A stretch of DNA of 43,033 bases, taken from contig CAIMBK010000071.1 of the NCBI GenBank assembly GCA_903839195.1, positions 1 to 43,033 of the forward strand. Direction: 5' to 3'. This DNA is from an uncultured Bacteroidota bacterium (lineage in GTDB: Bacteria > Bacteroidota > Bacteroidia > Flavobacteriales > Flavobacteriaceae). Shown in pieces: positions 373 through 13,280 of this stretch (position 1 is the stretch's first letter; each line of letters begins with the position of its first letter). A program made the translations under genes and the position numbers. The notes under the pieces are model-generated. The model saw only the letters and a program-made list of their open reading frames with translations. It did not search any database and had not been told where the DNA came from.

Positions 373-2166
373 ATGCAACAAAATAGACACACTTTTCACA
401 TTCCTGTAATGGGATTGGCATATACAATTGACAGTCCAATTAAAGTAGCAAAATACGGAATCTCTTCCGTGGTTTCAATTACAGATGATGAATTAATTGA
501 AAAAATGAGAGCCTTTTACAGTCAGAAATTCAGTTTTCCATACCTAGAAATTACTTCGAAAAGTCACGATTGTAGAGCAGAAAGAATAAAAAGTTATTTA
601 AATTTAGTTGATGTGATTGTAAAATATAAATTTGAAAATTTTAAAATTGAATTATCCGAAAATAAGGTTTCACTTGAAAATTTTATCAGGATGTTACCGA
701 ATAAATCCGATTTAAAAAATGGATTGCAAAAATTGATCGACGAGGGAAATGCTGCAAAAGAAACCGTCAAAAAATATTTGTCGGAAGCAATGTCTCCCGG
801 AGAAATTGATGTGAACATCATGACAAAGGTGGATAAAGATAATTTTATAAAACACGAGCAACTCCCAATTGAATTTAATGATGCGCATGCGGCACTTCGA
901 GGATTTGCAAAAAGCGATTTATCTTCTTCTGTAGTATTATCAGCGGGAATGAATCCACGATTATACAGTTATTTCGAGAATTTTTCCGCCTTTTTTCCGG
1001 ACATAAATTTGGAATTAAAAAAGAAAATAATTTTGAAGGTTAGCGATTTTAGATCGGCATTAATTCAAGGGAATTTTTTAGCCAAAAAAGGGCTTTGGGT
1101 TTCGGAATATCGAATTGAATCGGGATTAAATTGCGGCGGACATGCATTTGCAACAGATGGATTATTGCTAGGGCCAATTTTGGAAGAATTTAAATCAAAA
1201 AAAAATCAATTAATTCAATCGGCTCATGAATTATTGACAAAAGCATTGGAACTGAAAAACAAACCAATTCCAACTGAGCCATTATCCTTAAAAATTACTG
1301 CTCAAGGCGGGGTTGGAACTTCGGAGGAACATTTGTTTTTGTTAGATCATTACGAAATGGATTCTGTGGGTTGGGGATCGCCATTTTTGCTGGTTCCGGA
1401 AGCCACTTCAGTCGATATTGAAACCAGAAATTTATTGGCTAACGCCAAAGAAGATGATTTTTATTTGAGCGCTATTTCGCCTCTTGGAATTCCATTTAAT
1501 ACCGTGAAAGGAACCAGTAATGAAAAATGGAAACAAAAAAGAATTCATGAAAATAAAGCAGGAAGTTCCTGCCCGAAACGCTTATTAGCATTGAGCAAAG
1601 AATATGAAAATGAAGGGCTTTGTATGGCGTCAAAAAAGTATCAAGATATTAAATTGACCGAATTAGAAAGCATAAAAAACGACATGTCAATTGGTGAATT
1701 TAAGAAGCAAAAAGAGACCATCACTGAAAAATCATGCCTTTGTGTTGGGTTAGCAAATTCGGCTTATATGGAAAATGATATAGAAATTAAAGGCCAACAA
1801 CAAGGAATTGTAATCTGTCCTGGACCTAATTTAGCCTATTTTGACAAAGTGGTTTCGTTAACTGAAATGGTTCAACATATATATGGAAATGCCAATTTAA
1901 TTTCGGACAAAAACAGGCCAAATATGTTTGTCAAAGAATTAAAAATGTATGTTGATTATTTAAAAAATGAACTGGCTAATTGTTCAGAGACGATAACATC
2001 TGCTCAAATTAAAAAATGGCAAACTTTCAAAAACAATGTTTCAGTTGGAATTGAATATTATGAAAATTTGTTTCTAAATTCCACTTATTTTATAGAAACG
2101 CAAGCAATTATATTAGAACAATTAAATTATTATAAATCAGAATTAAATAGAGTAGAAATTCCTTAA
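373..2166 (+). CDS. Unrecognised 597-aa cysteine-containing protein with an FMN-barrel-like core
   Basis: I do not recognise a named family. There is no signal peptide or membrane segment, so it is probably cytoplasmic. The middle (about residues 309-345) reads TAQGGVGTSEEH, then VGWGSPFLLVPEA, which resembles the phosphate-binding end of FMN TIM-barrel enzymes such as nitronate monooxygenase, FabK and IMP dehydrogenase (GG, then GxGxxF, then E). Cysteines occur at 254 (NCGGH), 400 (SCPK), 417, 455 and 457 (CLC) and 482 (CPGP). The cluster after residue 400 could hold metal or an Fe-S centre, but it is not a standard ferredoxin motif. The N-terminal segment GISSVVSITDDELIEKM also looks barrel-like. 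The start at 373 is chosen because the ATG at 361 runs into a stop after two codons. It lies tail-to-tail with nrdG, and the dyad upstream suggests co-regulation with the NO and anaerobic genes. A flavin or Fe-S oxidoreductase is plausible; the substrate is unknown. Confidence 0.75.
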   Translation: MQQNRHTFHIPVMGLAYTIDSPIKVAKYGISSVVSITDDELIEKMRAFYSQKFSFPYLEITSKSHDCRAERIKSYLNLVDVIVKYKFENFKIELSENKVSLENFIRMLPNKSDLKNGLQKLIDEGNAAKETVKKYLSEAMSPGEIDVNIMTKVDKDNFIKHEQLPIEFNDAHAALRGFAKSDLSSSVVLSAGMNPRLYSYFENFSAFFPDINLELKKKIILKVSDFRSALIQGNFLAKKGLWVSEYRIESGLNCGGHAFATDGLLLGPILEEFKSKKNQLIQSAHELLTKALELKNKPIPTEPLSLKITAQGGVGTSEEHLFLLDHYEMDSVGWGSPFLLVPEATSVDIETRNLLANAKEDDFYLSAISPLGIPFNTVKGTSNEKWKQKRIHENKAGSSCPKRLLALSKEYENEGLCMASKKYQDIKLTELESIKNDMSIGEFKKQKETITEKSCLCVGLANSAYMENDIEIKGQQQGIVICPGPNLAYFDKVVSLTEMVQHIYGNANLISDKNRPNMFVKELKMYVDYLKNELANCSETITSAQIKKWQTFKNNVSVGIEYYENLFLNSTYFIETQAIILEQLNYYKSELNRVEIP

Positions 2167-5119: not shown

Positions 5120-5848
5120 TTAATTAGAATAAAATTGTTTTTCCATATTTATTGCCTTAGGAAATAGAATATTGTTTTCTAAATGAATATGCTTGTGTAA
5201 ATCTTGTTCAAATTCTAACAACATAGAATAGGTAACTTTGAAGGTGTTACAAGCATCATCTGGCGGGGTAAAATCATTTGTTAATAAGGCAATTTTAGAA
5301 AAAATAATTCCTTCCGATTCGTGTTCTTCTTGGAGCATTGCAATTGGATTTTCCACAGTTCCAAAATGAGGCTTGTCGATCAATTGATTGGATAAAACGG
5401 CTTGTTCCATCGCAATAATAAATGGAAACAAAATGATTTCCTCTTTTTTCATATGCATTATTAAATCGTTGGCGCTAATAGTAAACAGCGTTTTTATTTC
5501 AAATAATTCGGGATGTCGTTCGCCATGTACTTTACATAATTTATCTAAAAACGACATTAAAGTAGGTGTTTTTTCTTCAATAAACCGATGATGGGTTTCT
5601 AAAATATAATCTACTAATAAATTAGCCGACAAAAAGTTAAAATTAATATTGGAGTCATTATTGGAGTTCAGAATAAAAGATAAATCGTGTTCTAAAACGT
5701 CTTTACTAATTCCTTTTTTTTGACAGACCTCGTCGATGGTTTTATAGCCTTTACAACAAAAATCTATTTTATATTTAGAAAAAACCGCAGCGGTTCTAAA
5801 ATCTTGGGCTACAAATTCACCTATTGTTTTGCTTTCAATTGCATTCAT
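5120..5848 (-). CDS. ric: Iron-sulfur cluster repair di-iron protein (ScdA/YtfE/Ric family)
   Basis: This 242-aa protein starts with a ScdA_N (DUF542) domain of about 60 residues containing the twin cysteine DFCCKGYKTIDEVC (C31, C32). A hemerythrin-like four-helix domain follows, with histidine and glutamate ligands visible in THHRFIEEK, LIMHMKKEEIILFPF, QEEHESEG and HKHIHLENNILFP. The family repairs Fe-S clusters damaged by nitric oxide or oxidants through its non-heme di-iron centre. It is the first gene of the ric-nrdD-nrdG operon and has a long leader (about 140 nt) below the FNR-like site at 6023-6034. An imperfect dyad, TAGTGGTAG...CTATCACTA (5894-5919), lies in that leader. Family and role are well supported; regulation is inferred. 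Confidence 0.93.
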   Translation of the reverse strand: MNAIESKTIGEFVAQDFRTAAVFSKYKIDFCCKGYKTIDEVCQKKGISKDVLEHDLSFILNSNNDSNINFNFLSANLLVDYILETHHRFIEEKTPTLMSFLDKLCKVHGERHPELFEIKTLFTISANDLIMHMKKEEIILFPFIIAMEQAVLSNQLIDKPHFGTVENPIAMLQEEHESEGIIFSKIALLTNDFTPPDDACNTFKVTYSMLLEFEQDLHKHIHLENNILFPKAINMEKQFYSN

Positions 5849-6058: not shown

Positions 6059-7597
6059 TTATGTATTTTCATTTTTAAGTTTGAATTTAACGAATCCGCC
6101 TCGATTTTCATTTCTATTAATTGAATGCCTAATGATTAGAATCCCAATGGTAATCATGTTTTTCAATTCAACTAATTGCGTGCAAATTTGATAGCTTTCT
6201 TGTGTTGTTTCTAAATCCAACAACCATTTAATAAGTTGCGTTTCCGCTTGAAGTAATTCTGAATCATGCCTTATAATCCCAACGTTTTGACGCATCAATA
6301 ATTGGACTTCTAATTTTAATTTATTCAAAAAATTGGCGTTAAATTTCGGTTTTGACTTATTATTAAATAATGGTTTTGTCTCTTGAAAAACTGTTTTTAT
6401 AGTATTGAATTTGGATAAATAATTAAAAATTTGATCCGAATAAACCAGCGCCTCTAATAAGGAATTTGACGCTAACCGATTGGCTCCGTGCAAACCTGTT
6501 CGGGAACATTCGCCGCAAGCATACAAATTTTCGATAGAAGTTTTTCCATTTGTATCAACCGCAATTCCGCCACAAAGGTAATGTTGGGCTGGAATAACCG
6601 GAATCCAATCTTTTGAAATAGCAATTTTATTGCTTTTACATCGGTCATAAATCATTGGAAAATGCTTCTTAAATTTTTTTTCATCCAAATGCGTGCAATC
6701 CAAATAAACACAATTATCCCCAGACTTTTTTAATTCCAAATCAATACTTTGCGAAACGATATCTCTGGATGCTAATTCGCCTCTGGTGTCATATTTTTGC
6801 ATGAAACGATTCCCGTTTTTAGTTTTTAAATAGGCCCCAAATCCTCGCACAGCTTCAGAAATTAGAAATTTAGATTCATATCCTTTTTCAAATAATGCCG
6901 TTGGATGAAACTGAATAAATTCCATGTCCATTAGTATTGCATTTGCCCTAAAAGCCATCGCAATTCCATCACCAGTAGCAATTATTGGATTTGTTGTATG
7001 TCCATAGACATGCCCGATTCCGCCAGTTGCCAAAAGTGTTATATCGGATAAAAAAGTTTGAATAGTATTTGTTTTTTGATTAAAAACCGAAGCGCCCAAA
7101 CATCGGTTTTTTTCCATAATTAAATCCAAAGCCAAATGAAAATCCAAAATCGTAATGTTATCTATTTGATTTACTTGACGTAAAATAGCCCTTTCGATTT
7201 CTAAACCCGTTTGGTCTTTGTGGTGCACAACTCTGTTTTCGGAATGACCTCCTTCTTTTCCTAAATCAAATTCTCCGTTGGCAACTTTGTCAAAATTGGC
7301 GCCCCAATCAATTAATTCCTTTAATCTTTTGGGTCCTTCAGAAATAACCAATTCGACTACTTTTAGATCGCACAAACCATCCCCGCAAAGTATCGTGTCT
7401 TCAATGTGTTTTTGATAGGAATCCCCTTCGTCTAAAACTATTGCAACGCCTCCTTGTGCATATTTGGTGTTGGATTCAGATTCATTGGATTTAGTGATAA
7501 TAGTTATGGATTTTTCGGGGAAATGATTGGCGATTTTTATAGCAAATGTCAATCCGGCAACACCTGAACCAATAATTAAATAATTAGTTTTTATCAT
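6059..7597 (-). CDS. nadB: L-aspartate oxidase
   Basis: This 512-aa flavoprotein opens with the FAD-binding motif IIGSGVAGLTFAIKIA. It has the family signatures NTKYAQGGVAIVLD, HSENRVVHHKDQTG, GDGIAMAFRANA, FIQFHPTALF and GLHGANRLASNSLLEALVYS. It oxidises L-aspartate to iminoaspartate, the first step of NAD synthesis de novo, and can use fumarate as well as oxygen as acceptor, so it works anaerobically. Its start overlaps the nadA stop by 4 nt, indicating coupling. The C-terminus (ENRGGFVKFKLKNENT) departs slightly from the usual ESRGxHxxxDxP ending, without evidence of a frameshift. It is the last gene of the norC-norB-nadA-nadB unit. Confidence 0.95.
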   Translation of the reverse strand: MIKTNYLIIGSGVAGLTFAIKIANHFPEKSITIITKSNESESNTKYAQGGVAIVLDEGDSYQKHIEDTILCGDGLCDLKVVELVISEGPKRLKELIDWGANFDKVANGEFDLGKEGGHSENRVVHHKDQTGLEIERAILRQVNQIDNITILDFHLALDLIMEKNRCLGASVFNQKTNTIQTFLSDITLLATGGIGHVYGHTTNPIIATGDGIAMAFRANAILMDMEFIQFHPTALFEKGYESKFLISEAVRGFGAYLKTKNGNRFMQKYDTRGELASRDIVSQSIDLELKKSGDNCVYLDCTHLDEKKFKKHFPMIYDRCKSNKIAISKDWIPVIPAQHYLCGGIAVDTNGKTSIENLYACGECSRTGLHGANRLASNSLLEALVYSDQIFNYLSKFNTIKTVFQETKPLFNNKSKPKFNANFLNKLKLEVQLLMRQNVGIIRHDSELLQAETQLIKWLLDLETTQESYQICTQLVELKNMITIGILIIRHSINRNENRGGFVKFKLKNENT

Positions 7598-8526
7598 TTT
7601 TTTGAAATTTCAAGCATGCGTTGTATTGGAAGTAGTGCTTTAATACGAATGTTTTCAAGAACATTAATTTCGGGATATTCATTTAACAAGCAATCATACA
7701 CTTTTTGAAGTGTATTGAGTTTCATAAAACCACATTCGCTACAGGCGCAAGTATTATTTTCAAAAACTGGTGCTGGAAGTAGGGTTTTATTTGGCACTTC
7801 TAAATGCATTTTATGCAGAATTCCAGACTCTGTGGCAACAATAAATTTTTTGCTAGGATTTGTTTTCACGAAATTGATCATTCCAGAGGTAGATCCTATA
7901 TAACTGGCTGTTTTTAAAATATGTGCTTCCGATTCTGGATGCGCAATAATTTTGGCATCTGGGTTTTTAAGATGCAATGAAATTAATTTGTCTAATGAAA
8001 AAGCTTCGTGAACCAAACAGGAACCATTCCAAAGAATCATTTTACGATTTGTTTTTTGATTAATGTAATTTCCTAAATTTCTATCGGGTGCAAAAAGGAT
8101 TGGTTTTTCAATTGGAATCGATTCAACAATTTTGATAGCATTAGAAGAAGTACAAACAATATCGCTCATCGCCTTAATTTCGGCCGAACAATTTACGTAG
8201 GTTATAACAATGTGATTCGGGTGCTGTTCTATAAATTTTTTAAATAAATCTGGCGGACATGCATCGGCAAGAGAACATCCAGCATTCAAATCGGGTAGGA
8301 TTACTTTTTTACTTGGATTTAAGATTTTGGCGGTTTCAGCCATAAAATACACCCCAGCAAATAGAATAATATCGGCAGTAGTTTTTTCGGCTTCTTGAGA
8401 TAAACCCAAACTATCTCCAACAAAATCAGCAATTTCTTGAATGGCGGCATCTTGATAATAATGGGCTAAAAGTATCGCGTTTTTTTCTTTTTTTAATGCT
8501 AGAATTTTGGCTTTTAGAATTTCCAT
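7594..8526 (-). CDS. nadA: Quinolinate synthase
   Basis: This 310-aa enzyme condenses iminoaspartate with dihydroxyacetone phosphate to quinolinate, using an oxygen- and NO-sensitive [4Fe-4S] cluster. Family features are LLAHYYQDAAIQEIADFVGDS near the start, LNAGCSLADACPPD, VTYVNCSAEIKAMSDIVCTS, AHPESEAHI, FIVATESGILHKM and the C-terminal cysteine motif CACSECGFMK. The length is normal. It lies 13 bp after norB and overlaps nadB by 4 nt, so the pair is co-transcribed with the NO-reductase-like genes. Pairing a cluster-dependent NAD-synthesis enzyme with NO-detoxification genes suggests that this copy serves NO-stressed or anaerobic growth; whether the genome has another nadA cannot be seen here. 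Confidence 0.95.
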   Translation of the reverse strand: MEILKAKILALKKEKNAILLAHYYQDAAIQEIADFVGDSLGLSQEAEKTTADIILFAGVYFMAETAKILNPSKKVILPDLNAGCSLADACPPDLFKKFIEQHPNHIVITYVNCSAEIKAMSDIVCTSSNAIKIVESIPIEKPILFAPDRNLGNYINQKTNRKMILWNGSCLVHEAFSLDKLISLHLKNPDAKIIAHPESEAHILKTASYIGSTSGMINFVKTNPSKKFIVATESGILHKMHLEVPNKTLLPAPVFENNTCACSECGFMKLNTLQKVYDCLLNEYPEINVLENIRIKALLPIQRMLEISKK

Positions 8527-8539
8527 TATTAGTTTTTAT

Positions 8540-9868
8540 TTAATTTAGTTTGGTAAAATACCCTTTTTTTAATTCATTAATTAACGGAATAATAATAAGG
8601 CAAAGTCCTATAAAAATTCCTATTCCAGAAAATAAGAACATGCAATAATAACCATACAAAGAAACCTGCATTTCAGCAAACGAAATGTCTTTTGTAAAAT
8701 ACATCCAATGACTTTTTTTAATTCCAGCCAATAGCAAACTTATCCAGAAAACAAAAAAAGAGACTTTGAAAATAGAAAATCCTATTTGTAATTGTCTGCT
8801 TTTACAGTCAAAATCGGGGTTGATTTTAGCGATAATATACAAGATTGAGGCTAATAATATTGTTGTGTTTATTCCGATTGTAGTTCCCATCGAATGAGCA
8901 ACCGTTATAAGAGTTCCATGTGTAAATAAGTTTATTGCTGGAATAGAAAACAACAAGGCTAAAATTAAATTTAGAAATATCCAATAATCCGCCAGAACTA
9001 GAAATTTGTAAGAAAGAAAGTGGTTTGATTTACTATTTTCAGACAAACTATTTTTCCATTTATAAATGATATGAAACAAAATAATCCATTCGGTCATACT
9101 AATTGCATAGGCAAAATAGCGAATCCAAGGAGCTGTGGGAATAATATACACATGATGTGCCCAGCCAAACATTAAGTTAATCAACCCTAAAAAGTAAAAA
9201 AAGAAAGATTCTTTTTTGGTTCCAATGGAATTATCTTGACTAATTTTTGACATTAAAAAAAGTGCAGTTCCATAAACTAACATATTCCAAGAACCCACAA
9301 AAGAGCCTCCAGCTTTCCATTGAACGGCCAAATCTTTAATATAATTTTGTCTAAAAGACGGCATTAACCAAAAATAAGCCTCACATAAATGATAGGTCAT
9401 AAATACAATTCCTGTGCCCCACATACAATAATAAACGGGCCATTGATAAGGTTTTTGAAAAACGGTTTTAAAATAATTAATTCCAAATAAAAACCATCCT
9501 ATAAGAATTGGCAAAATTAATAAAGGAGGGAATTCCAAATATTCTCTGCCGCCCTTTATTCCAAAAAAATAACAGCCATAAATAAAAACCCCAGTAAATA
9601 GGAATATTGCAAAATGAATTTTTACTAGTTTTTTAGAAAACAAATGGAAAGAATGGGATATATAAAAATAAATTCCTCCCGAAGAAGAAAGGATAATCCA
9701 GGAAATTACGGAAGTTACATGAAGCGGTCTTAAACTATTGAAAGGAAGTGTTTCTTTAATAAATTCAGGAACTAGATATTGAAATCCAGATAAAACACCA
9801 AAAAACATTCCTAATAGTAACGCAATTAGCGCTATTGTTAAAAATAAAATAGCGGTTTTATTTTTCAT
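8540..9868 (-). CDS. NorB-like heme-copper-type subunit with altered metal ligands
   Basis: This integral membrane protein (442 aa from the ATG at 9868) has many hydrophobic helices and aligns by eye with cNOR NorB. RPLHVTSVISW supplies the first low-spin heme His (H50), GWAHHVY the adjacent His pair of the non-heme metal site (H238, H239), and THGTLITVAHSM the high-spin heme His (H325). Three expected features are absent. The helix corresponding to HLWVEGVWE reads GGSFVGSWN, so the third metal His and the Glu are missing. The HxH motif is HSM, putting Met327 where the second low-spin heme His should be. I prefer the start at 9868 to the track's 9943 because the latter adds 25 non-membrane residues lying inside norC; 9868 leaves an 11-bp overlap. 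With NorC upstream, NO reduction is the likely role, but an unusual heme-copper family or a different substrate is possible. Confidence 0.75.
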   Translation of the reverse strand: MKNKTAILFLTIALIALLLGMFFGVLSGFQYLVPEFIKETLPFNSLRPLHVTSVISWIILSSSGGIYFYISHSFHLFSKKLVKIHFAIFLFTGVFIYGCYFFGIKGGREYLEFPPLLILPILIGWFLFGINYFKTVFQKPYQWPVYYCMWGTGIVFMTYHLCEAYFWLMPSFRQNYIKDLAVQWKAGGSFVGSWNMLVYGTALFLMSKISQDNSIGTKKESFFFYFLGLINLMFGWAHHVYIIPTAPWIRYFAYAISMTEWIILFHIIYKWKNSLSENSKSNHFLSYKFLVLADYWIFLNLILALLFSIPAINLFTHGTLITVAHSMGTTIGINTTILLASILYIIAKINPDFDCKSRQLQIGFSIFKVSFFVFWISLLLAGIKKSHWMYFTKDISFAEMQVSLYGYYCMFLFSGIGIFIGLCLIIIPLINELKKGYFTKLN

Positions 9869-10295
9869 TTTTAGTTTGTATTTCGACCCAACCATTTGGA
9901 TGGATTGTAGCATTTCTATTAGGATAATACCCCGTTTGGTCAACTTCTTTTAAAAATACAATAAGTGCCCGTTTTTCGGATTTTGAGAAATGAAATTTAG
10001 GCATCGATTTTATTCCGCTGGTCAAAAAGGCATTGATGTAATTGGGCCCTTTGTTTGTATCTGAATAAATATTGGTTAAATCAGGGCCTAAATAGCCGCC
10101 CAAACCATACAATTGATGGCAATGAAAACAACTGTTTTGCTGCCAAATAGTTTCGCCAATAAGCGCTTCTTTGCTTAGATTATTTTGGCAATTATCAATA
10201 TCATCTGAATAAATATTGCCATTATATATAATGAAAACAATTATTAAACTCAATAAAAATCCAATATAAAAATAATTATTGGGCGAATTATGCAT
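9858..10295 (-). CDS. norC: NorC-like membrane-anchored cytochrome c
   Basis: This 145-aa protein has one N-terminal membrane anchor (about residues 9-25) and one heme-c site CFHCH (C56, C59, H60). The surrounding pattern GETIWQQNSCFHCHQLYG, then GYLGPDLTN, then MPKFHFSKSEKRALIVFLK, follows cNOR NorC closely, including the distal heme ligand in MPKF (M98). It would pass electrons from the periplasmic side to the NorB-like subunit. It is the first gene of norC-norB-nadA-nadB. The FNR-like dyad and -7 element directly upstream indicate activation under low oxygen or NO. Unlike its partner, nothing in NorC looks degenerate. Confidence 0.88.
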   Translation of the reverse strand: MHNSPNNYFYIGFLLSLIIVFIIYNGNIYSDDIDNCQNNLSKEALIGETIWQQNSCFHCHQLYGLGGYLGPDLTNIYSDTNKGPNYINAFLTSGIKSMPKFHFSKSEKRALIVFLKEVDQTGYYPNRNATIHPNGWVEIQTKNEK

Positions 10296-10359: not shown

Positions 10360-10406
10360 GGAAGTAGAAATAGTAGAAATCAATAAAATGGAATACTATT
10401 ATTAAT

Positions 10407-13280
10407 TTAGATGCCCATTAAAAAGCCAATTAGATTTTCTTTTTTGGTAAGTCCTAATTTTTTACGCAATCGGTATCTCGCGAGTTCAACGCCACCATTG
10501 GAAATATTCATTATTTCCGCAATTTCTTTCGTGGACATATTCATTAATAAATAGGTTGACAAATCCAATTCACGTGGCGAAATGGTTGGGAATTTTTCTT
10601 TTAATCGCTTAAGAAAATCAAAATGAACATTTTTGATATGCTTTTCTAAATCCTTCCAACTTTTGTCTGTATTTACTTCCTTTACGATACTTTTATTCAA
10701 TTTTGAAAATTGATATTTAGTGGATTCATCAAAAGAATCGGCATTAATATCTTTCAATTTATGAATAATTCCGTTTAGGATTTTATTTTTCTTTACAACT
10801 TGCAGCGTATTATTAACCAGCTCTTTATCTTTAAGTAAAATTTTAATTTGAAGTTTATCATTTTTCAAACGTTCAATTTCTTTTTCCAACTCAAATTGCT
10901 CTTGTTTGATTTTAGATTCTTTTTCCAAATACAAACGGCGTTGTTCAATCGTTTCAATATATTTATTTTTTCGGATTTTTAGGCTAATTCGCTGACGTAC
11001 AATTTTTATTGATATAAAAATTAATGCCAAATAAAACAAATAGGCCAAAAAATGCCGGTACCATGGAGGCGAAACTGTAAAACCAAGAAGGGATTGCTCC
11101 GAAATTACACCAAAACTATTTCTAACTTTTACCCGCATGATATAATCGCCTTCGTGTAAATTGGTGTATTCTTTAACAGGCGTTGTAGACCAATTACTCC
11201 AGCGATCATCAAAACCTTCAAGTTGATAGGAATAAACAACATTTTCAATGTTTTCAAAAGTTGGCGATGAAAAGGTAAATTTTACATGATTTGATGCGTA
11301 TGGAATAGCAATTTTTTGAATTTGATTCTTTCCGTTTCCAAAGGATAATGTGTCATTAGAGAAGGTCAAACTTCGAATAAATACCTTTGGTTTATATATT
11401 GAATTTTGGAGTAACTTTGAGTCATAATGAGCCAGTCCATCCGTGAGACCAATAAAAATCGTATTTAAATCGATAGTGTTTACAGACTCATAATTGGAAA
11501 CTAATTTTCCTGTAAAATTTGAAAATGGAGCTGAAATATTTCTGTAGCGACCGGAATTTTCTTTCATTAAAACTCCAATGGATTCGCCATAAAAATACCA
11601 AATATTGCCAAATTTATCTTCGTTTATGGTTTTGACAATTGGAATCTTTTGGAATAATTGATTCATTTTCTTTACTTCAAAAAACGAATCTTGTTCATTC
11701 AAATAGACAAAAAAGTGATTGTTAATTTGGAAATACACTTTGTTCTGAATGGTTTGAATACTTCCAATTCCTTTTAAATTATCTGAAATGTTTTTGTAAT
11801 TTTTAATTGAATTAAAACGCGTTAAAGATCCATTTAATTCCATTCGAAAAACAAGTTCGTCCTTTTTGAACCATAAATAATGAGCATCCATTTCGAATTT
11901 ATTCACGGATTTGGAATACCCTTCTATCTTATTTTTAAAGCGCCATTGTCCGTTCGTATTTTCAAAAACCGTAAATCCGTTATATCCAGAACCAATCAAA
12001 ATGTTGGGATTATTGGGTTGTTTTTTGAAACCCCAACACCCTTTATTGTCAATAAATTGTATCGTTTGATCGGGTTTTATTAAAATAGACCCTTTATTAT
12101 GAGCGCATACTAATTGGTTGTCAATAAGTTGAATGTTCCATGCTTGGCCGGTAGTTACTGGCAAAAGCCGAAAAGAATCATCCTTGAAATTCGCATCCCA
12201 TTTATGATAAAAAACACCTTGATTCGTTGCAACATAAAGATTTCCGTAACAAACTACCGATGCGTAAACCGTGCTTATTTCGAAGCTTTCACCAAAAAAA
12301 GTAAAAGGTGAATTTTCATTAATAAAGGTAATTCCATTATCCAATCCGAGCCATAGATTTTTTTTGTTATCTACAAAAGAAGTTAGTACCGTATTGTTTT
12401 GTAAACCGTTTTTTCGATTAATATGCTGAATGATTTTGCCATTAAAATCACAAATTGCCAAACCATCTAAAACCGAATTAATCACAATAAACGAATCGTT
12501 GATTAAAGCCCCGCCCAAACAATTGTTTATCTTAACAAATTCATTTACTTCGGTATTCCAGGGAAGTATTTTTTCGTTTTCATAGAGAAAAATTCCTTTA
12601 TCAATTGTGGCAATAAGTATACAATTATTTGGCAAACCAAACATTCCCCAAACTTCGGTATTGTTGACAATTTCGGTTCCAGAAAGTGGCAACAGCCGTC
12701 CGTTTGAATATTCCATCAACCCCTTTGAAACGTCTTGAAAGTAAAGTTTATTATTGACAATAAATGAAAACTGAAACCGTTTAGGTGGCTCAAAAGTTCG
12801 AATGGTATTGTTTTTATAAATATAGGTTTTCTCGAAAGTTTGAAAAAATACCTCATCATTAAAAATGTGAATTTTCCAGATAAAATCAATGATTTTGGAA
12901 TCCTTTTTCTTGACCATATTAGATAAGGAAAAATAATTTAATTTTCCTTTTGACCCTATTTTAAAAAAACCAAATTCATTATAACCACCCACAAAAATTC
13001 GTCCACTTGGATCAATTTTTAAACTTCGGATTGCGGCAGAATTTGGAATAGTATATTTAGACCAAGAGGCGCCATCAAATTGATATAGTCCACTATTATT
13101 AGCAAAATACATATTTCCGTTTTGATCTTGGTCGATGTTCCAGTTTTGGGTTTCTCCTTTATACTCGGTTCTCTTGAAATTTCTAATTTCTGGAAAACCA
13201 AGACTTTTTACTTGAGATTCCATTAATTGAAACACAAAAAACAGGAAAAAAAACGTAATATATTCTTTAAGGAATTTCAT
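10407..13280 (-). CDS. Membrane-spanning propeller sensor with LuxR-type HTH (one-component regulator)
   Basis: This 957-aa protein begins with a hydrophobic signal segment (residues 4-20). A long region of two-component-regulator-propeller-like repeats follows (for example GLYQFDGASWSKY, NLWLGLDNGITFINE, GNIWYFYGESIGVL). Then comes a Y_Y_Y domain (VVYSYQLEGFDDRWSNWS), one membrane helix (HFLAYLFYLALIFISI), a charged coiled coil, and at the very C-terminus a LuxR/GerE helix-turn-helix (ISPRELDLSTYLLMNMSTKEI). There is no histidine-kinase or receiver domain, so signal and DNA binding are in one chain, a layout resembling that of SusR-like regulators. It is divergent from the SusE/F-like gene and next to SusC/SusD, so it most likely senses a periplasmic sugar product and controls this locus, perhaps through the 17-bp direct repeats at 13463-13512. 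Confidence 0.85.
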   Translation of the reverse strand: MKFLKEYITFFFLFFVFQLMESQVKSLGFPEIRNFKRTEYKGETQNWNIDQDQNGNMYFANNSGLYQFDGASWSKYTIPNSAAIRSLKIDPSGRIFVGGYNEFGFFKIGSKGKLNYFSLSNMVKKKDSKIIDFIWKIHIFNDEVFFQTFEKTYIYKNNTIRTFEPPKRFQFSFIVNNKLYFQDVSKGLMEYSNGRLLPLSGTEIVNNTEVWGMFGLPNNCILIATIDKGIFLYENEKILPWNTEVNEFVKINNCLGGALINDSFIVINSVLDGLAICDFNGKIIQHINRKNGLQNNTVLTSFVDNKKNLWLGLDNGITFINENSPFTFFGESFEISTVYASVVCYGNLYVATNQGVFYHKWDANFKDDSFRLLPVTTGQAWNIQLIDNQLVCAHNKGSILIKPDQTIQFIDNKGCWGFKKQPNNPNILIGSGYNGFTVFENTNGQWRFKNKIEGYSKSVNKFEMDAHYLWFKKDELVFRMELNGSLTRFNSIKNYKNISDNLKGIGSIQTIQNKVYFQINNHFFVYLNEQDSFFEVKKMNQLFQKIPIVKTINEDKFGNIWYFYGESIGVLMKENSGRYRNISAPFSNFTGKLVSNYESVNTIDLNTIFIGLTDGLAHYDSKLLQNSIYKPKVFIRSLTFSNDTLSFGNGKNQIQKIAIPYASNHVKFTFSSPTFENIENVVYSYQLEGFDDRWSNWSTTPVKEYTNLHEGDYIMRVKVRNSFGVISEQSLLGFTVSPPWYRHFLAYLFYLALIFISIKIVRQRISLKIRKNKYIETIEQRRLYLEKESKIKQEQFELEKEIERLKNDKLQIKILLKDKELVNNTLQVVKKNKILNGIIHKLKDINADSFDESTKYQFSKLNKSIVKEVNTDKSWKDLEKHIKNVHFDFLKRLKEKFPTISPRELDLSTYLLMNMSTKEIAEIMNISNGGVELARYRLRKKLGLTKKENLIGFLMGI

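Follow-up and report, generated by a model that had tools for sequence, protein, structure and literature searches.

A conserved NorB-like protein of Bacteroidota with an altered active site may be an overlooked nitric-oxide-handling enzyme

Introduction

Membership of the haem-copper superfamily is usually read from a signature of six histidines (PMC3413370). In PacNOR, His347 and His349, with one residue between them, hold haem b3 and haem b, Glu211 is a ligand of FeB, and calcium is held by NorB Glu135 together with NorC Gly71 and Tyr73; a conserved Trp stands four residues before the third metal-B His (Trp482/His486 in AxqNOR) (PMC10256718). NorQD is essential for the insertion of FeB into cNOR, with NorD acting as the partner of NorQ (PMC9976466). 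NO dismutase (NOD) carries the signature HN for HH and Gln for a nearby Glu (PMC3413370), and for other NOR families Table A4 of PMC8756737 lists Q (eNOR), N (sNOR, CuANor) or D (gNOR) as the active-site residue. A 2025 survey sorted NORs into seven classes, with sequences lacking conserved ligands removed, and 9% of Bacteroidota with denitrification genes were found to have nir and nosZ but no nor (PMC12569097).

Here we describe a NorB-like protein, named NorB2, from an uncultured Flavobacteriaceae bacterium. It is encoded on contig CAIMBK010000071.1 (assembly GCA_903839195.1), of which positions 1 to 43,033 were analysed (the window).

The norC2B2 locus

The following features of the window are relevant here:

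8540..9868, minus strand: NorB-like haem-copper subunit I (NorB2), 442 aa, Pfam COX1
9858..10295, minus strand: NorC-like membrane cytochrome c (NorC2), 145 aa, with CFHCH, GGY and MP
7594..8526, minus strand: nadA (quinolinate synthase), downstream of norB2 in the same gene run, a recurrent neighbour
6059..7597, minus strand: nadB (L-aspartate oxidase), a recurrent neighbour of norC2B2
5120..5848, minus strand: RIC/ScdA-type di-iron Fe-S repair protein, a recurrent neighbour of norC2B2

The norB2 reading frame is intact (ATG at 9868, stop at 8540), and its start overlaps the end of norC2 by 11 nt; the genes after the RIC/ScdA-type gene were read, by their sequence, as nrdD and nrdG. The host genome (2.03 Mb, 93.6% complete), of which Flavobacteriaceae bacterium UBA5534 is a named close relative, encodes three COX1-family proteins: one aa3-like, one cbb3 CcoN-like and NorB2. 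The initial annotation had described the operon as regulated, which found no support in the window itself, as a simple pattern search gave no FNR-like box upstream of norC2 (loose matches were seen in three relatives). Crp/Fnr or Rrf2 genes do adjoin norC2B2 in several relatives, and in L040 and L041 Crp/Fnr regulators lie within the norC2B2 cluster. Two other genes of the window were recorded. First, a 957-aa Y_Y_Y/propeller/LuxR-type regulator (10407-13280, minus strand) lies upstream of norC2, which has the same orientation, and a homologue adjoins norC2B2 in L036. Second, a 597-aa ORF (373-2166, plus strand) had no match in Pfam or NCBIfam searches, and its homologues lie close to norC2B2 in L027, L028, L029, L046 and L110.

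Structure prediction, proposed as a check in the initial annotation, returned a NorB fold. The AF2 model, made with the window and locus sequences as input, had a mean pLDDT of 85.5 and a pTM of 0.90, and its best Foldseek matches in the PDB were NorB of R. denitrificans (4xyd_A, TM 0.85) and of P. aeruginosa (3o0r_B, TM 0.83), with cbb3 chains next (TM 0.80-0.84). The Pfam COX1 match (108.9 bits) and the AF2/Foldseek results both identify the subunit I fold of the haem-copper superfamily; Pfam assigned COX1 alone, while NCBIfam gave weak ccoN scores, far below cut-off.

Active-site residues of NorB2

We counted residue conservation over 45 NorB2 homologues, in which 52 residues are invariant. 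Among these are Arg47, His50, Glu109, Glu163, Trp184, Lys185, Gly188, Gly192, Asn195, His238, His239, Glu260, His317, His325 and Met327 (all 45/45). The canonical histidine sextet is incomplete, with four of the six present in every homologue. The motifs concerned, including the RPLH, HH and H-S-M that had been noted by eye, are all found in the reading frame:

9719..9730, minus strand: RPLH, residues 47-50; His50, first haem b ligand, 45/45
9380..9391, minus strand: HLCE; His160 13/45, Cys162 5/45, Glu163 45/45
9284..9322, minus strand: QWKAGGSFVGSWN, residues 183-195; Trp184, Lys185 and Asn195 invariant, Gly188 and Gly192 in place of ligands
9152..9157, minus strand: His238-His239, the remaining metal-B pair, 45/45
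9086..9100, minus strand: SMTEW; Glu260, at the cNOR Glu280 position, 45/45
8888..8920, minus strand: HGTLITVAHSM; His325, haem b3 ligand, and Met327, replacing the second haem b His

The change at metal B lies in helix VI, where GGSFVGSWN of NorB2 faces HLWVEGVWE of cNOR, as the initial annotation had proposed, and contains neither His nor Glu. Gly188 occupies the position of the third metal-B His, and Gly192, four residues on, that of Glu211 (both 45/45); the invariant Lys185 lies three residues before Gly188. As identity to canonical NorB is only ~20%, we considered whether NorB2 is a normal cNOR whose alignment had slipped, or a copy in decay. We give this next to no weight. BLAST-type, profile and profile-profile alignments of NorB2 to canonical NorB are consistent from end to end, and residues 183-195 hold no His. 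In hhalign with canonical NorB from the same bacteria, the metal-B His faces Gly188, and phmmer/hmmsearch against the solved NorB chains gave the same residue assignment, so a helix shift, which the initial annotation had named as a possible error, does not account for the result. Because the invariant Trp184 fits the conserved Trp, the missing His is assigned to Gly188 and the missing Glu to Gly192. This mapping is good to one residue, the alternative register placing the His at residue 187 (variable: Y 32, N 6, G 3, A 2, T 1, M 1) and the Glu at Val191; the Glu211 position is therefore Gly192 (45/45) or Val191 (41/45), never Glu, and His or Glu occurs at either register choice in 0/45 homologues. 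His325 and Met327 map onto PacNOR His347 and His349.

Of the three residues suggested by the initial annotation as replacement ligands (His160, Cys162 and Glu163), only Glu163 is conserved; His160, mostly Thr in the homologues, and Cys162, rare in them, were rejected. The initial annotation had passed over Glu260, which preserves the other active-site glutamate of cNOR (Glu280). Glu163, at the end of the predicted helix 145-166, is a candidate carboxylate ligand of metal B. The other two helices of interest in the AF2 model are 180-210, holding Lys185 to Asn195, and 320-349, holding His325 and Met327. His320 (HGTH) was rejected as a replacement, as it is present in 43/45 homologues but absent from the window protein itself. 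Overall, the conserved residues show a predicted haem path like that of cNOR up to haem b3, with the metal-B half-site changed, and the loss of the metal-B and haem b histidines is a conserved family trait rather than chance or decay.

Phylogeny, selection and spread

In the tree, which the initial annotation had called for against NOR and cbb3 families, NorB2 groups with the NORs and falls outside cNOR and qNOR. All NorB2 sequences fall into a single deep clade (100/99), whose sister group comprises cNOR, qNOR and NO-dismutase-like proteins; long branches meet at the NorB2 join, so the exact sister is less sure than the separateness. The tree and AU tests agree on a position outside the cNOR clade: forcing NorB2 together with Bacteroidota cNOR cost 38.8 log units (AU p 0.0002), and forcing it into one clade with all cNOR cost 16.0 log units (AU p 0.0055). 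A recent local duplication of cNOR was thereby ruled out (AU p 0.0002). NorB2 thus has a clade of its own, in line with the suggested haem-copper family of altered active site.

NorB2 is under purifying selection, with dN/dS of 0.03-0.10 in four close pairs (the remaining pairs were saturated or near-identical). This, along with the 52 invariant residues, bears out the earlier view that the gene is not decaying, as does its presence in 77/395 class-sample Bacteroidia genomes (>380 bits; hand count from table). Within the same family 11/251 genomes carry NorB2, as do 8/396 in the phylum sample and 6/248 in the order; these rates are not strictly comparable with that of the class, for which a wider search query was used. 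The scan of genome contigs for NorB2 yielded one relative, and the search for plasmid-borne members matched only distant NOR-type proteins (<26% identity).

The NorC2 partner

NorC2 lies directly beside NorB2 in the 20 longer loci, except in L046, which is cut by the contig end. A CxxCH NorC2 was found in 19/19 of the long loci with the site on the contig, and a CxxCH subunit also at 26/27 further NorB2 loci. NorC2 keeps CxxCH, the Met in MP and a G-x-Y/F motif (GGY/GGF), confirming that the partner is intact. NorB2 Glu109 takes the position of PacNOR Glu135 and the G-x-Y/F motif that of NorC Gly71/Tyr73; mapped in this way, a calcium site would be kept in NorC2B2 through Glu109 and GGY/GGF. 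The surrounding stretch reads GLGGYLGPDLT in NorC2 versus GEGAYYAPELT in canonical NorC.

The partner also bears on whether NorB2 belongs to a described alternative family (eNOR, sNOR, gNOR, nNOR or bNOR), which likewise have altered active sites. We consider such membership improbable. A NorC is encoded at NorB2 loci, whereas the subunit II of eNOR, sNOR and bNOR is of the CuA type. The published residues, compared by description (Q in eNOR, N in sNOR and CuANor, D in gNOR; PMC8756737), also differ from Gly192/Val191.

Gene context and NO genes of the carriers

The 20 longer loci contain nadA/nadB in 14 cases, RIC in 7 and Rrf2-type regulators in 9. A canonical cNOR cluster holds or adjoins norC2B2 in 8 of them: norC-norB-norQ-norD adjoins in L012, L028, L029, L032, L033, L034 and L035, several of which add norE-norF, and L027 starts with the end of norD. 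In L038, a gene divergent to norC2B2 (10375-12681) encodes a qNOR-like protein with the NO-dismutase signature. This protein and that of L078:587-2980, from two Bacteroidia genomes, have HN for HH and STLQ for SALE. Near norC2B2 in L036 (14549-15772), a 407-aa membrane protein with the motif HTHSHIALLGW drew no match in Pfam and is possibly a distantly related haem-binding protein of the membrane.

Genome-wide, canonical cNOR was present in 10/19 NorB2 carriers, all 10 with NorD, and neither was present in the other 9. Among these 9, G619 has a dismutase-like protein, G619 and G754 carry another haem-copper protein (L076, L077) of ambiguous type, and in 7 no other NOR-like protein was found. 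The L076 and L077 proteins, which have an N-terminal extension, are of another haem-copper family (HFTDFTVAHSHLTMYG, MHQGVGMW); they lack Glu at the NorB Glu280 position and branch between cbb3 and the NORs.

NosZ was found in 18/19 carriers and NirK in 8/19. Of the 251 genomes in the family sample, 120 encode NosZ, among them 11/11 NorB2 carriers (hypergeometric p 2.3e-4, uncorrected for kinship). In G027 (99% complete), NorC2B2 is accompanied by NirK and NosZ, and cNOR and qNOR are absent. The window genome encodes NosZ as well as NorC2B2 but gave no NirK match. Cytochrome cd1 nitrite reductase had no match in any carrier, nor in the controls, so this negative is uninformative. Taken together, the context (nadAB, RIC, Rrf2, cNOR clusters, NO-dismutase-like genes and NosZ) points to NO metabolism.

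Proposed function

The fold, purifying selection and ancient clade argue for a working enzyme. From the fold, partner, neighbours and NosZ, we infer that NO is the substrate. Our main reading, to which we assign a probability of roughly 55%, is that NorC2B2 reduces NO with electrons from cytochrome c, using a two-His (plus carboxylate) metal-B site and a His/Met haem b. It would be a two-subunit membrane complex, a distinct clade in the NO-reductase branch of the superfamily. Electrons would enter through the haem c of NorC2 and pass to a low-spin haem b (His50 and Met327) and on to haem b3 (His325). Met327 is a likely axial ligand of haem b because it takes the ligand's position and is invariant.

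The metal-B site is most likely either two-His (plus Glu) or empty. It would keep the His238-His239 pair, with the glycines in place of the third His and the Glu leaving a cavity. The invariance of the HH pair and of Glu260 makes it probable that metal B is retained. Since two-His-one-carboxylate sites are common among non-haem iron enzymes, the simplest reading would be an iron bound by two His and a carboxylate (Glu260 or Glu163). The site may instead be empty, because the lost His and Glu correspond to metal-B ligands of PacNOR and NorD is absent from 9/19 carriers. In that case NO, or some other small ligand, would bind to haem b3, and Lys185 or the cavity would take the metal's place, making the complex a one-haem NO reductase, an NO scavenger or a sensor. 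The replacement of both ligands by invariant glycines, the invariant Lys185 three residues ahead of Gly188 and the genomes with NorC2B2 only and no NorD are consistent with this, but the His-His pair and Glu260, kept in 45/45, are hard to explain without a metal, and we consider a metal-free complex unlikely, if the strongest of the alternatives.

A different reaction (NO-dismutase-like, oxygen-reducing or other) was also weighed, as NO dismutases have lost one metal-B His and the nearby glutamate (PMC3413370), and two carriers have NO-dismutase-like genes, one of them adjoining norC2B2. However, NorB2 has lost another His than NO dismutase and keeps the Glu280 position, it lies outside the qNOR/NOD clade, and a cytochrome c input subunit is always present where a dismutase needs none. 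We therefore hold a different reaction to be doubtful, well behind the metal-free complex.

As an NO reductase, NorC2B2 would convert NO to N2O, which NosZ of the same cell would remove. Carriers without another NOR, such as the window genome, would have no haem-copper NO reductase besides it, and there it would shield NO-sensitive Fe-S enzymes, for example the co-encoded NadA. Against this reading, a further ordinary NOR would be superfluous in the 10 carriers with canonical cNOR.

NorB2 may thus handle nitric oxide at an altered active site and have gone unnoticed as an enzyme of this kind. No description of the clade was found in the searched literature, although Murali et al. 2024, on alternative NORs, might mention it; NorB2 would probably fail a conserved-ligand filter such as that of the 2025 survey. 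A broader proposal, held tentatively and at a little under even odds, is that it represents an undescribed and widespread Bacteroidota NOR class, independent of NorQD, whose haem b is His/Met and whose metal-B site has two His or is empty, and which fills the NO-to-N2O step in at least some of the nir/nosZ genomes scored as nor-less. If true, a four-histidine family with a constant Met at haem b would widen the known supports of NO chemistry and provide a natural test of the roles of the third ligand and of bis-His haem b, and N2O bookkeeping for Bacteroidota (most nosZ 'terminators') could change.

Comparison with known systems

cNOR (NorBC; 3o0r, 4xyd) is similar in fold (TM 0.83-0.85), in its paired NorC with CxxCH and in the frequent location of norC2B2 at nor clusters, and NorB2 shares with it the haem b3 His, the first haem b His, the HH pair, the Glu280 position and the Ca2+-site residues. 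NorB2 differs in having Gly for the third metal-B His and Glu211 and Met for the second haem b His, in forming a separate clade and in the absence of NorD from 9/19 carriers. NO dismutase, which is qNOR-like, also lacks one metal-B His and occurs in some of the same Bacteroidia. However, it has no NorC, while NorB2 is without the qNOR-type N-terminal domain, keeps HH and Glu260, and has lost the helix-VI His, the Glu and a haem b His. The eNOR, sNOR, gNOR, nNOR and bNOR families are likewise haem-copper NO reductases, or candidates, with altered sites; published residues set eNOR, sNOR and gNOR apart (Q/N/D versus Gly/Val in NorB2). Finally, cbb3 CcoN shares the haem-copper fold (TM 0.80-0.84) but keeps the canonical histidines (e.g. 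L044), whereas NorB2 groups with the NORs.
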